Of a DNA stretch of 64,000 nucleotides, positions 15,317-63,378 are shown piece by piece (position 1 is the first letter of the stretch; every line of letters begins with the position of its first letter). The translations under genes were made by a program, and so were the position numbers. Origin of the DNA: Candidatus Kapaibacterium sp. (GTDB taxonomy: Bacteria > Bacteroidota > Ignavibacteria > Kapaibacteriales > UBA4661); contig RDXM01000085.1 in NCBI GenBank assembly GCA_004292595.1, forward strand, positions 1-64,000. The letters are read 5' to 3'. Under the pieces are notes generated by a model. It worked only from the letters and a program-made list of their open reading frames with translations, was not told where the DNA came from and made no database searches.

Positions 15317-15421
15317 TATACTAAAAAAGGTTAAGAATTGCATATCAAAAAGTGAAGGCATTGAGATGTAGTCCACCTTTGAGGTGGACTACATCTGAAG
15401 CAACAAACCTTTTTCAGTATA
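15317..15421. repeat. Family C repeat with terminal inverted repeats (C1)
   Basis: 105 bp. Termini tatactaaaaaaggtt and aacctttttcagtata are 16-bp inverted repeats with one mismatch. Inside is a 15-bp perfect stem, agatgtagtccacct / aggtggactacatct, with loop ttg. The copy at 60632-60736 has exactly the same length and layout with about ten substitutions. The form is that of a miniature mobile element, but no target duplication is obvious. Confidence 0.85.
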
Positions 15422-52277: not shown

Positions 52278-53294
52278 ATGACAAACACTCTCATAACCGC
52301 ACATAACCTTGATGTTCTCAGCACAATGCCTTCTTCGACGGTAGATGTGGTGCTGACTTCGCCACCCTATTTTCGTCAGCGCGAGTATGACCACGAAACA
52401 CCGCATGAAATCGGCAACGAAGCCACACAAGAGGAGTATATGCACAGTCTTCTTGCGGTTTTTCGGGAATGTGTGCGTGTGTTGAAGCCGACGGGCGCGA
52501 TTGTTATCAATCTTGGCGATAAATACTTGGATGGCAGCTTGGCACTGCTTCCCTATAAATTCGCTATTCAGGCAACGGACTTGTTCGATGTGAAATTGAT
52601 AAACAATATCACCTGGACAAAACTCAACCCAACACCGCGTCAGGACAAGCGAAAACTCGTACAATCCTCCGAACCGTTTTTCTTATTTGTGAAAGATTCA
52701 GCCCGCTATTACTTCGACCAAGATGCGTTTATGGAGCATTTGGACGCGCTGAAGGCAACAAATCGTGCGAAGCCAACCAACGGTTTAGGTAAAAAATACT
52801 TCGACCTTCTTGATGAATCTAGTCTCAGCGCAGAGGAAAAATCGAATGCGCGGCGCGAACTCACGAGCGTGATTGAAGAAGTAAAAACAGGCGCAATAGA
52901 AGGCTTCCGCATGAAAATACGCGGTCTCCACGCCCAACCTTTTGGCGGACAAGAAGGCGGGCGAAAGATTCACATTGAGCGCGACGGCTTTACTATCATC
53001 CGCATTTTGGGTAAAACCATGAAGAAAGACGTGATAGAAAGCCCTGTTGAGGCAATTAAAGGCAACCCGCATCCAGCAGTCTATCCGCTCTATGTGGTGC
53101 AGCAACTTATCAAATTACTTTGCCCTGAAGACGGCACCGTGCTTGACCCCTTTTGCGGGAGTGGCACAACCTGCGTCGCCGCGAAAATGCTGGGACGAAA
53201 CTACATCGGCATTGACATCAGCCCAAAATATATTGAGTATGCTGAAGAACGCTTGAATGCTGTGCAGAAGCGGGAATTGGAGTTGTTCCTATGA
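52278..53294 (+). CDS. Site-specific DNA methyltransferase (beta-class, N4-cytosine or N6-adenine)
   Basis: A 338-residue methyltransferase. The catalytic motif IV, LTSPPYF, lies near residue 32, and the SAM-binding motif I, DPFCGSGTTCVAA, near residue 287. This order (IV before I) defines the beta class. SPPY rather than DPPY points to N4-cytosine methylation, though some adenine enzymes carry it. The central, variable part (about residues 130-250) is the likely target-recognition region. It overlaps the next gene by 4 bases (ATGA), the usual arrangement of a type II restriction-modification pair. Confidence 0.92.
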   Translation: MTNTLITAHNLDVLSTMPSSTVDVVLTSPPYFRQREYDHETPHEIGNEATQEEYMHSLLAVFRECVRVLKPTGAIVINLGDKYLDGSLALLPYKFAIQATDLFDVKLINNITWTKLNPTPRQDKRKLVQSSEPFFLFVKDSARYYFDQDAFMEHLDALKATNRAKPTNGLGKKYFDLLDESSLSAEEKSNARRELTSVIEEVKTGAIEGFRMKIRGLHAQPFGGQEGGRKIHIERDGFTIIRILGKTMKKDVIESPVEAIKGNPHPAVYPLYVVQQLIKLLCPEDGTVLDPFCGSGTTCVAAKMLGRNYIGIDISPKYIEYAEERLNAVQKRELELFL

Positions 53295-54451
53295 AAGAGC
53301 AAGAATACGAAGATGCAATGCGGCTTCTGGAGCGATATTACGCCGATATTGAGCGTGCCATTGATAAGCCAACTCATTACAGCGACGGCATAGAATCTCG
53401 TGTTGCGGTATTGATGGAGCATTTACTGAAAAACAAATCGGTGGTTGCAGCACTGTTCACCAGCCTTGTCAAAAAAATCATAGACCCAAAGCAAGATGTA
53501 CGCTTGCCGCGCACTGAATTTGAAGGTGGATATTCAGGGCGTTCATTGGATACACACGTTACTGCGCCGTTTTTCAAACGACATTTTCCAACATACGCCA
53601 ACAAAGAATCCTCATTTTTGACTCTCGCAACAAGAGAAAGCATCAAGTGGACTCTCAAAGACGGACAAGATTTGAAAATTCGCAACCAACCGCTTAAAGA
53701 AGTATTCTTAGGCGTTCTGGACGACGTTCAGAAACGACGCGGCAGAGCCGAAGAATACTTGGATTGTCTTATTCGAGCCTTGCTTTTACGCTCAAAAGAT
53801 GAGGCAAAATTGTTTGATACATTCCTTGCAACACAAGATTCTGTCGGTGTTGTAGGGATTTATCAAATTATATCCATGTTGCGAGAACACTTTGCAATGC
53901 CGTACAGTTCGCGTTTGCCCGTAATTGCTTTGCAGACCGCTTATCAACTGCTTTTACCGTCCGTTTTGCGGTATCAAGGAAAACGTTTGGAAATTCTCAA
54001 ATCGCACACGTCGTCTGACCGCAAAGGCTTTGGAGATATTGAAATTTTTGATAAAAATAGACAACCTTTTGAAGTTGTTGAGGTTAAGCATAATATTTCT
54101 CTTGACCGCTATATCATCGCCGATATTATCAAAAAAGCCCAGAACACCACTATTCAACGCTACTACGCGCTCACCACAAACGAACCGAATTTTACCGACA
54201 GCAACGAAGAAATATACGTGCAGAGTTTTGTGCTGAATATCAAGCAACAAAGCGGCTTAGAAATCATTCCGAATGGTATCATTCCCAGCTTGAAATACTA
54301 TTTGCGCTTTGTGGAAGACTACTCCGAATTTCTTTCTCGATACGCTCAAAACCTCGTTGCAGACGCAAAAAATTCGACCGAAATCACGCCGAAACATCTT
54401 CAAGAATGGCAAAAAATCTGTCTTAAATTTCACATTCTTCCAACACCATGA
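53291..54451 (+). CDS. Type II restriction endonuclease, PD-(D/E)XK type
   Basis: A 386-residue protein partnered with the methyltransferase it overlaps. The nuclease core is visible at about residues 235-265: KGFGDIEIF, then FEVVEVKHN, giving the D...E-x-K pattern. The N-terminal half ([36 protein letters not shown]) resembles what I recall of the SacI-like restriction enzyme family, a tentative match from memory. Its stop codon overlaps the guaB start by 4 bases. No truncation or frameshift is seen, so the system should be active. Confidence 0.8.
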
Positions 54452-57551: not shown

Positions 57552-57959
57552 ATGCACACTTCTCTTCTTCGTCGATATATCGGTCTAGCATTTGTACTCA
57601 TCGCACTTGCCGTCGGCGTAAATGCTTGTACTGTTATCACCACCGAAACACAAACAACGGCACTCGCCCGCGCTAATGGCTGGAAATTTGACAGCTTTCC
57701 CGTAGGGACACCGACGGCTGATGTTCGCACCGCCTATACAGGTTCAACGATGAAGTTCACCTCAAATGGTGCATGGACACTGACAACCGCATCGCAACTT
57801 GCAGGCTCATGGTCTTGGGCTTCTCTGACCACCTTAGCGCTGACCTTTTCGGGTGCGACTGATACATGGGAAGTGGTGGAATTAAGTGCCACCACCATGC
57901 GTTGGTCGGCGCAGGTGAGCGGCGCAACACTTGAAATGCGTTGGACAGCAGTACAATAG
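57552..57959 (+). CDS. Small lipocalin-like lipoprotein
   Basis: A 135-residue predicted lipoprotein. The signal peptide ends near VGVNAC, giving lipidated Cys26. The remainder is a small beta-rich domain with repeated Trp/Thr/Ser strands (MKFTSNGAWTLTTASQL, GSWSWASLTTLALTFSG, WEVVELSATTMRW, LEMRWTAVQ). This is the layout of Bacteroidota lipocalin-like stress lipoproteins, though the assignment is by pattern only. Its TAG stop codon lies inside the first bases of repeat B2, so insertion of the repeat may have set the C-terminus. The frame upstream to 57429 precedes the signal peptide and is rejected. Confidence 0.75.
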   Translation: MHTSLLRRYIGLAFVLIALAVGVNACTVITTETQTTALARANGWKFDSFPVGTPTADVRTAYTGSTMKFTSNGAWTLTTASQLAGSWSWASLTTLALTFSGATDTWEVVELSATTMRWSAQVSGATLEMRWTAVQ

Positions 57960-58047
57960 AGTTTATCTCGAATAAGGTTTTTAGGGTTTTGGAGCAAGGC
58001 AGCATACTGCCTTGTTTCGTAAAAAAGTCTATTCGGAATAAAGTCTA
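57958..58047. repeat. Family B palindromic repeat (B2)
   Basis: About 90 bp, nearly identical to B1 at 15198-15287. The central palindrome carries one change (gcatactgc for gcatgctgc). The element starts within the stop codon of the lipoprotein gene. Confidence 0.85.
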
Positions 58048-58098
58048 ATAATGATTTGTTCGGGCGCGTAAAAAAGCACGTGAAGCACGTAAAAACAG

Positions 58099-58155
58099 AA
58101 GGTCTGAGGTTTTCGTAGTATGATTCATCCTACGGAAACCTCAGACCTTTTTTTA
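58099..58155. terminator. Strong terminator between the lipoprotein and PAS-protein genes
   Basis: aaggtctgaggttttcgtag (58099-58118) pairs with ctacggaaacctcagacctt (58130-58149) over 20 bp with one G-T mismatch and an 11-base loop, followed by ttttttat. The upstream side reads cgtaaaaacag, so the minus-strand T-run is weaker. It separates convergent genes. Confidence 0.9.
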
Positions 58156-58191: not shown

Positions 58192-60591
58192 CTACGATGG
58201 CAATGGCAAGACAAGCTGCAATGCAGTTTCAGCGTTTTTGCCCGTCAGGTACGCACCGTGCAGTTTAACGGCTTGCTGAATGGTGTACAAGCCTACTTCG
58301 GATGAATCGCCCGCAGTATGCTCGCTGTCCTGAAGCAAGGTCGCAATATTCTCGTAGCGGCTGCCTGTACAGGAAAAATGCCATGTTATGCTCTTTGGAA
58401 GCTGTGTTCCCGATGCAAATGTGCCTTCTATGCGGCATTGAATAAACATACCTTTTGCCAAGCCTTTATCCAAAAACAGAAGCAAATGCCAGACAATGAG
58501 GCGTAAAAGCTCATGGTCAATAAGAGCAGGAGTATTTTCTGGCAGATTGAACGTGGCATCAATCGGACGATGGCTATATTTTGAGGTAAATTCGCTGAGA
58601 AGTCGTTTGCTGAACGAGGTGAAATTGAGCGGCGCAAGCTGTAGTTGTGCGCGTCCCGTTTCTAATTTTGCCATCAGCACCATGTTACTCATCAAGGATT
58701 GAATTTCTTCAATTGCCTCTGAAATGTTACCAAAGTACGATGTAATCTTCTCTTCGGGCATTTTGAAATGATACTTGTGCATGATATTACTCGCCAGCGA
58801 AATCGTGCTCAGTGGCGTTTGAAGCTGTTGCGTGAGGCGTGCAATGATTTGGTTGCGCTGGTCGAAGGTGTCGCGCTCGCGTTGCATAGTTTTTTGAATT
58901 GCCGCCTCGACTTGGCGATATTGTGTGATGTCCTCGGCGGTCATAAGTACATTACGTTCAAGAATATCGTGATGTTGCTCAAAAATAGAAGCCTGCACAC
59001 GGCACCAGCGCGTATTGCCTGTTTTGGTGCGCAAGCGGGTGTCGGTCTGAAGAAGAGGAATATTTCCCAAAAGCAATGCTTGAAGCAACTCGGTGAAACG
59101 CTGGCGCTCGTCTTCGTGGAGCAATTCCTGATACGGCTTCGTAGAAAGCTCCTCATATGAATACTCAAGCAATTCCAAAAATGCTGTATTTGCTTCTCTT
59201 GGCTGCAAGGCACTGGTGAGAATCAGCTTTCCGAGCGTGGATTGCTCGAAAAGCTGCCGAAATTTGCGCTCGCTTGCTTCTAGGCGTTGTTGGGCTTCTT
59301 TGAGAAAGGTAATATCCTGTAATGTGCCAAACATCACGATTACTTTTCCAAGCGAGTTCACGATATTCCCGCCCGTGCCGCGCATATAGCGCGTCGTACC
59401 GTCGCTACGAATAAGGCGATAGTCAATAAAGGGCGATTGCTCAAGGGTTTCAACGGTATTGCGTTGGAGCAGAGCCAGACCGTCTTTGACAATGCGGCGG
59501 TCGTCGGGATGCACGTGCTGAAGAAAAGAACCAACCTCAGGCTGAAATTGCTGAGGTTCGTATCCAAGCTGGCGAAAAAATTCATCCGACCACGTAAGCT
59601 CGTCGCTGCGTAAATCAAGCTCCCACGAGCCAAGATTGGTAAGGTGCTGTGCTTGATTCAAAACATTGGTGAGGCGTTGTAGTTTTTGTTCCGAGCGTTT
59701 ATTATCGGTAATGTCTTGAATCACGCCCCGCAGCTTGCTAATATTGCCCTCGGCATCGCGCAGCACTGCGCCATAGCCGCGAATATGCCGTATGGTATCG
59801 TCGGGCAGAACAATCCGATATTCCAGCGCGTCGCTTTGTCCCTGCAATGCCGCCTGCATATCGTCGTACACACGCTGGCGGTCGTGCGGATGGACAAAAG
59901 CGTAGTAATTATCAATGCTTGCAGGATATTCCTCTGGCGTACGGCAGATAAGATGATAATACTCTTCCGTCCAGAAGAGACGCTGCGCGGCAACGTCGTA
60001 TTCCCAGCCGCCAATTTTAGCAATCGCTTGGGATTCGCGCAAAAGAAAGCGTTGTGTGTCGAGTTCGCTGTGCGTGGCGCGGAGTGCGCTCATATCCTGA
60101 ATCGTGCCGTGCAATCGCTTCTGCGTACCGTTATTGCTTGATGACAATTCACTTACCGTCTCGTTCAATGATTCACTCATAATGCACGACACAAGCACGG
60201 TCTTTTCTATCGTGTATGCTTGCACTGCTCGTGTGTCTGTTGTCTGTTCGTGTGTAAAACGCGGCTGCGCCACAAGAATACGATGCTCACTTTCAAAGCC
60301 TGTACTGTGTTCGATACCATGCTGAATAGCCTCGCGCAAACGCTCGCGGTCAAAAGAATGCACAATCTGTGCGATATATTCTTGAAGCGTCCACGCCTCG
60401 TGTTCAGCAATGCCAACAATAGCGCGGGCTTCCGCCGACCAGTACATCTGTCCCGTCGTCAGGTCGTGTTCCCACGAGCCAATATTCACGACGCGCTGAA
60501 TGCTACCCGAACGCGGGGAAGAGACCTTTTCAGAAGTATTTTCAAATAATGCACGTTCGTGCGGCATGGAGGAGTGCGGTGTTAAGGACAT
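58192..60591 (-). CDS. Multi-PAS sensor protein with degenerate histidine-kinase core
   Basis: A 799-residue soluble protein. Four PAS/PAC units occupy about residues 35-150, 175-295, 310-430 and 435-560 (motifs IGSWEHDL, IGGWEYDV, LGSWELDL; PAC ends such as GVIQDITDNKRSEQKL and GTLQDITFLKEAQQRL). The final ~230 residues align by pattern with a DHp/ATPase core but key residues are lost. The usual SHE-x-RTPL box reads TQQLQTPL, with Gln588 where the phospho-accepting His should be. The N-box Asn is replaced (RLIVWHLLLFLDKG), and the G1/G2 boxes are eroded (HFSCTGSRYENI). The frame is intact. It may be a signal-binding scaffold or regulator rather than a kinase. No response regulator adjoins it. 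Confidence 0.85.
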   Translation of the reverse strand: MSLTPHSSMPHERALFENTSEKVSSPRSGSIQRVVNIGSWEHDLTTGQMYWSAEARAIVGIAEHEAWTLQEYIAQIVHSFDRERLREAIQHGIEHSTGFESEHRILVAQPRFTHEQTTDTRAVQAYTIEKTVLVSCIMSESLNETVSELSSSNNGTQKRLHGTIQDMSALRATHSELDTQRFLLRESQAIAKIGGWEYDVAAQRLFWTEEYYHLICRTPEEYPASIDNYYAFVHPHDRQRVYDDMQAALQGQSDALEYRIVLPDDTIRHIRGYGAVLRDAEGNISKLRGVIQDITDNKRSEQKLQRLTNVLNQAQHLTNLGSWELDLRSDELTWSDEFFRQLGYEPQQFQPEVGSFLQHVHPDDRRIVKDGLALLQRNTVETLEQSPFIDYRLIRSDGTTRYMRGTGGNIVNSLGKVIVMFGTLQDITFLKEAQQRLEASERKFRQLFEQSTLGKLILTSALQPREANTAFLELLEYSYEELSTKPYQELLHEDERQRFTELLQALLLGNIPLLQTDTRLRTKTGNTRWCRVQASIFEQHHDILERNVLMTAEDITQYRQVEAAIQKTMQRERDTFDQRNQIIARLTQQLQTPLSTISLASNIMHKYHFKMPEEKITSYFGNISEAIEEIQSLMSNMVLMAKLETGRAQLQLAPLNFTSFSKRLLSEFTSKYSHRPIDATFNLPENTPALIDHELLRLIVWHLLLFLDKGLAKGMFIQCRIEGTFASGTQLPKSITWHFSCTGSRYENIATLLQDSEHTAGDSSEVGLYTIQQAVKLHGAYLTGKNAETALQLVLPLPS

Positions 60592-60631: not shown

Positions 60632-60736
60632 TATACCAAAAATGGGTAGAAATTGCATATTGAAAAGTAAAGGAGTTGAGATGTAGTCCACCTTCGAGGT
60701 GGACTACATCTGAGGCAGCAACCCTTTTTCAGTATA
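60632..60736. repeat. Family C repeat with terminal inverted repeats (C2)
   Basis: 105 bp, the same length and layout as C1. Termini tataccaaaaatgggt and accctttttcagtata, inner stem agatgtagtccacct / aggtggactacatct with loop tcg in place of ttg. It lies just upstream of the PAS-protein gene. Confidence 0.85.
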
Positions 60737-60813
60737 GATGGGAGCGAACCACGCGCAATATACGCAAGGTTTGGCAGAGAATGAGCAGGAATAGAAACAA
60801 TACCGCAACAGCG

Positions 60814-62993: not shown

Positions 62994-63378
62994 TGTGGGT
63001 GTGATTTTGATGGAATATTTGGTTGAATATGCGTGTTGAATGTGTGTAGATAGGGTGTTGGAAATGCGCATCGGTAATTTAAGAAAAAAATTGGTCAATA
63101 AAATACTCCTTTCGGTGCTGCTTTTCGCTTGCAAATTCCCAGTCGTGCAGTATTTTTGCCGTCGCAAAACTCCGTTCTTCGTATTCTCATTATTCACTTT
63201 GCACCATACAAAAAGTCTTCAGTAGTGGCACAGACATTCTTGTCTGTGAGTATTAGTGCGGGATGCAAGCGACAAACACAGACAAGAATGTCTGTGCCAC
63301 TGAAGCCTGACTCTACGTGTCTTAGAAGAGTTTTGTATGATACTGAGGATTGTTCCACATTTTTTCGCCAAAAACCTC
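62994..63378. other. Divergent pulA/panB intergenic region (385 bp)
   Basis: No gene seen. It holds the family A repeat A4 at 63219-63304 and otherwise AT-rich DNA that must carry the divergent promoters of pulA and panB. I could not assign convincing -10/-35 boxes. Confidence 0.6.
63219..63304. repeat. Family A palindromic repeat (A4)
   Basis: tcagtagtggcacagacatt at the left is complementary to aatgtctgtgccactgaa at the right; each arm also contains its own cacagaca/tgtctgtg hairpin. It lies upstream of panB. Confidence 0.9.

Follow-up and report, generated by a model that had tools for sequence, protein, structure and literature searches.

A probable four-PAS pseudo-histidine kinase kept in two species of one genus

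What does a histidine kinase do when its phosphoacceptor and its ATP-binding residues have both been replaced while the reading frame stays open? The question is raised by a minus-strand gene near the end of the window, by which we mean the whole stretch of 64,000 nucleotides that was analysed. The gene's initial annotation described an intact four-PAS protein with Gln in place of the H-box His and with degraded N and G boxes, and proposed a retained non-kinase role, in which the protein dimerises or sequesters another kinase or regulator.

Domain architecture and altered catalytic residues

The gene and the elements of its product are as follows.

58192..60591, minus strand: whole gene of the probable pseudo-histidine kinase (799 aa, stop codon included; full-length orthologue at L009:1384-3882)
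60172..60486, minus strand: PAS1 (PAS_3, 24.9 bits, weak, just below the cut-off of 25.6)
59692..60051, minus strand: PAS2 (PAS_3, 61.9 bits)
59284..59679, minus strand: PAS3 (PAS_3, 50.6 bits)
58912..59268, minus strand: PAS4 (PAS_3, 43.4 bits, and PAS, 40.9 bits)
58654..58860, minus strand: HisKA/DHp-like two-helix domain, residues 578-646 (Pfam; DHp region 93% identical in the orthologue)
58816..58830, minus strand: altered H-box QQLQT, residues 588-592 (His replaced by Gln588 and Glu/Asp by Gln589; Thr592, part of the phosphatase motif, retained)
58195..58644, minus strand: CA-like domain of HATPase fold (unrecognised by Pfam, fold predicted to be kept)
58456..58488, minus strand: degenerate N-box HLLLFLDKGLA, residues 702-712 (identical in both species)
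58357..58371, minus strand: degenerate G1 box CTGSR, residues 741-745, in place of DxGxG (CTDSR in the orthologue; hand alignment of predicted strands)
58273..58299, minus strand: degenerate G2 box EVGLYTIQQ (EVGL being residues 765-768) in place of GxGLGLxIV (hand alignment of predicted strands)

The frame is open from the ATG at 60591 to the stop at 58192, as initially read, and the four PAS domains were recovered too: the Pfam search of the full protein placed PAS_3 in four stretches, and all four pieces matched PAS_3 when scanned one by one, PAS2, PAS3 and PAS4 clearly and PAS1 weakly. The HisKA match (residues 578-646) scored 27.3 bits, barely above its cut-off of 26.9, and HisKA was also matched when the C-terminal 239 residues were scanned apart. 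No HATPase_c match was obtained in the Pfam scans of either the full protein or these 239 residues, whereas two catalytic paralogues score 95-97 bits for the same domain.

The H-box of the protein reads ARLTQQLQTPLS, with Gln588 (codon at 58828-58830) at the position of the His and Gln589 at that of the Glu or Asp. Aligned against 52 paralogues, the protein has Gln in column H28 (residue 588), Phe in column N146 (residue 706) and Leu in column A147, so that Phe706 replaces the key Asn of the N-box. This alignment upholds the substitution of Gln for His, and Phe706, CTGSR, EVGL and the missing HATPase_c match agree with the degraded N and G boxes described initially; that the acidic neighbour of the His has also become Gln had been missed. 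Compared with a catalytic HisKA kinase, the protein thus has no phosphoacceptor His (Gln588 in both species) and no recognisable N, G1 and G2 boxes of the ATP pocket (HLLLFLDKG, CTGSR and EVGL), and we infer that it is unable to autophosphorylate. With a HisKA domain above the cut-off and both the His and the ATP boxes lost, the gene product is probably a soluble four-PAS pseudo-histidine kinase.

An orthologue under constraint and the genomic setting

A full-length orthologue (77% identity) is encoded in the genome of another species of the genus, G005, and has the same Gln-Gln H-box (TQQLQTPLSTISLASNIMHK) and an identical degenerate N-box. The codon for Gln588 is CAA in the species of the window and CAG in G005, indicating that Gln has been retained at this position through a silent change. 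Between the two orthologues dN/dS is about 0.11 for the whole gene, 0.03 for the DHp region, 0.04 for the front of the CA domain and 0.16 for its back, and since dS is near 1 the constraint is real. Identity reaches 93% in the DHp helices, which rank among the best-conserved parts, and is lower (about 69-70%) at the back of the CA domain, where the G boxes and the lid lie. Other kinases served as a control for constraint, in the form of 23 reciprocal-best pairs between these two genomes, in which identity ranges from 0.57 to 1.0 for the DHp region and from 0.67 to 1.0 for the back of the CA domain. The pseudokinase lies inside both ranges and is therefore not noticeably relaxed; judged by these sequence comparisons, it is kept about as strictly as a working kinase. 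The idea of a relaxed CA domain was dropped, given that about 69% at its back is within the range of the catalytic pairs. A lone decaying copy among homologues that keep the His would have spoken against a retained function, and the reverse was found, the only close homologue carrying the same Gln-Gln under purifying selection.

Among the eight genomes of the genus searched, only two species carry the pseudokinase. Searches of 61 relatives and of 395 genomes of the phylum, together with one scan of genome_contigs, yielded no further close homologue but only distant PAS or kinase matches; where a genome was rich in kinases, the first look scored top candidates only, so that a divergent orthologue could escape it.

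The neighbours of the gene differ between the two species. In the window they are a pullulanase-type amylase and an AraC-type regulator, and in G005 a PAS kinase, a WYL regulator and SusC/SusD-like genes (the latter read by eye), the G005 amylase gene being on another contig, followed by a gene that reads, again by eye, as mraY. A search of both genomes for a conserved operon partner gave none, and no response regulator adjoins the pseudokinase gene in either. In G005 the PAS histidine kinase and the WYL regulator (L138:11118-13108) precede the pseudokinase on the same strand, their ORFs overlapping by 70 bp, and the closest match of this neighbour kinase in the genome of the window (78% in the kinase part) is on another contig, C199.

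Two flanking elements accompany the gene.

60754..60788, minus strand: 35-bp block upstream of the gene, the same to the letter in both species and present once per genome, a probable promoter
58094..58154, minus strand: terminator-like hairpin, 37 nt past the stop codon (-30.7 kcal/mol, z -7.5)

The identity of the upstream block suggests a promoter that travels with the gene, which by its sequence looks like a transcription unit of its own.

Several repeats were seen in the same region. A perfect hairpin (stem AGATGTAGTCCACCT, window positions 60679-60711) follows the upstream block and precedes the pseudokinase start; G005 lacks it at the corresponding place. It belongs to a dispersed palindromic, REP-like repeat of which the genome has about 120 copies (forward matches 124, reverse matches 118, control 0), and the same repeat occurs at 15368-15392. 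The element at 57957-58047 (91 bp) contains a GCAAGGCAGCAT hairpin and shares 96% identity with sequence next to the G005 amylase gene; because this element also matches the G005 sequence in the opposite orientation, it too is probably a dispersed palindromic repeat. A further probable palindromic repeat, 83 bp long, lies upstream of the amylase gene (63219-63301) and matches G005:C6 on both strands. Elsewhere in the window, at 52278-54451, an N6/N4 DNA methylase gene overlaps by 4 bp the gene of a 386-aa protein with no Pfam match, in the layout of a restriction-modification pair.

Fold, origin and possible function

AlphaFold2 modelling of the DHp-CA region with 53 relatives (pLDDT 86.5, pTM 0.76) gave the DHp as two long helices and a complete set of HATPase-fold elements, the lid stretch being poor. 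In a Foldseek search of the PDB, the top matches of the model were HK853-RR468 complexes (TM up to 0.75), and the top 30 included RetS (6dk8) and DivL (4q20), both at TM 0.70-0.71. The DHp-CA fold of a catalytic HisKA kinase is thus predicted to be intact, and the protein would be expected to dimerise and to bind a partner.

In a tree of the kinases of the genome, the orthologue pair branches inside the clade of HEFRTP kinases; its stem measures about 6 changes per site, and its tips 0.12 and 0.035. The pseudokinase therefore appears to derive from the HEFRTP-type PAS kinases (HisKA) of the same genome, and its evolution appears to have been rapid until the two species diverged and slow thereafter, a long stem with short tips fitting fast change after the loss of catalysis followed by constraint. 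Its nearest paralogue by the tree, C102:54443, is a lead only, as the placement depends on a very long branch (support 98/53), which makes the exact neighbour unsure, and the bootstrap had not settled. The HEFRTP PAS kinases (C102:54443, C51:30600 and C128:10170) share the HisKA clade and, where checked, the PAS-DHp-CA layout, but they keep the His, C51 scores 95 bits for HATPase_c, and even the most similar of the paralogues is at most about 24% identical to the pseudokinase over DHp-CA.

Pseudo-histidine kinases are already established, and the protein described here adds one more. The closest working model, by analogy, would be DivL of Caulobacter crescentus, a PAS-bearing DHp-CA pseudokinase also devoid of the phosphoacceptor His, which has neither kinase nor phosphatase activity, yet binds DivK~P (PMC4211667). 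The pseudokinase is not an orthologue of DivL by the residue at the His site, which is Tyr in DivL (Ala in one known DivL) and Gln here; identity to 4q20 is about 15%, DivL binds TNP-ATP weakly whereas the ATP boxes of the pseudokinase are degenerate past Pfam recognition, and no linkage to DivK or CckA was seen at the gene. For an action on another kinase, RetS and ChrS may serve as models. RetS of Pseudomonas aeruginosa also has a degenerate HATPase domain, and modulates another kinase without autophosphorylating (PMC5992135), but its H-box has stayed HExxT and it carries receiver domains (REC2 with D858), neither of which is present in the pseudokinase, with its QQxxT and no receiver domain. 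The ChrS pseudokinase variant of Corynebacterium glutamicum is catalytically dead and still alters the signalling of a paralogous kinase (PMC9491836); it differs in being a product of laboratory evolution, which arose by a CA-domain frameshift and retains the DHp His.

Taken together, we favour, with a probability of about 0.68, a binding module that is gated by its PAS domains, does not phosphorylate, and docks either a response regulator or a second kinase. PAS signals would rearrange a dimeric DHp, whose conserved surface would dock a response regulator, in the manner of DivL with DivK~P, or a second histidine kinase, in the manner of RetS with GacS, and docking would alter the output of the partner's pathway without phosphotransfer. 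The initial proposal of a retained non-kinase role is thus supported by the Gln-Gln orthologue and purifying selection; its dimerising or sequestering part is plausible by analogy with DivL and RetS, but gains nothing from conserved gene linkage.

A narrower form of this reading, which we regard as possible although not the likelier outcome, is that the protein, itself inactive as a kinase, forms heterodimers with a catalytic paralogue, either modulating the activity of that paralogue or acting as a dead half. RetS-GacS (PMC5992135) and ChrS-HrrS (PMC9491836) are precedents, the preserved DHp helices agree with it, and the genome offers 101 other HisKA domains as potential partners. Yet no linked kinase is conserved, the neighbour kinase of G005 having its closest match on C199, and the lack of a paralogue nearer than about 24% in DHp-CA makes DHp pairing less likely.

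Rather unlikely is a dedicated response-regulator phosphatase that has lost kinase activity and keeps the other through Thr592 of the (E/D)xxT motif. This Thr is kept in both species, the His has been reported to be non-essential for HisKA phosphatase activity (PMC12632262), and RetS with its degenerate HATPase domain dephosphorylates GacS-P via HExxT (PMC5992135). The acidic residue of the motif, however, is Gln589 in both species, so that the motif is half gone, and DivL, the nearest functional parallel, lacks the activity; with the Glu also lost, a pure phosphatase role is less likely even though Thr592 is kept.

We give still less credit to a pseudo-transmitter rebuilt, after the burst of change, into a platform that binds a new partner not belonging to classical two-component signalling, which would amount to a lineage-specific PAS-controlled signalling output.

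That the gene was recently inactivated and is heading to loss is very improbable: every catalytic box is lost and only two species carry it, but the 799-aa frame is open, dN/dS is about 0.11, the altered H and N boxes are identical in two species at a dS near 1 and the upstream block is conserved, and decay was rejected on the constraint between the orthologues. A sequencing or assembly error at the H-box, conceivable in a draft assembly of 199 contigs, is ruled out for practical purposes by the same residues, with synonymous differences, in an independent genome.

Frequency of HisKA domains without the His

A PF00512 search of the genome gave 102 HisKA domains, all of which were retrieved and aligned; in 101 of them the H-box has His and then Asp or Glu, and the pseudokinase alone has Gln-Gln. 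In a published census 0.9% of HisKA domains lack the His (722 of 76,471; PMC12632262), and at this rate the chance of at least one such domain among 102 is 0.62, with about one expected. A single case is therefore ordinary, and the general picture of these proteins is unchanged, since both the kind is known and the rate is as expected. What the locus provides is a well-supported, naturally conserved pseudo-histidine kinase that has lost both catalytic residues of the H-box as well as the ATP boxes, among about 100 ordinary kinases, and in the sister-species pair a clean case for asking what the DHp-CA fold does once catalysis is gone. The kinase set itself is very large, with 102 HisKA domains in a genome of 4.6 Mb and H-boxes mostly of the HDLKNPL type, and the same-genus genome G005 has 134 HisKA matches.
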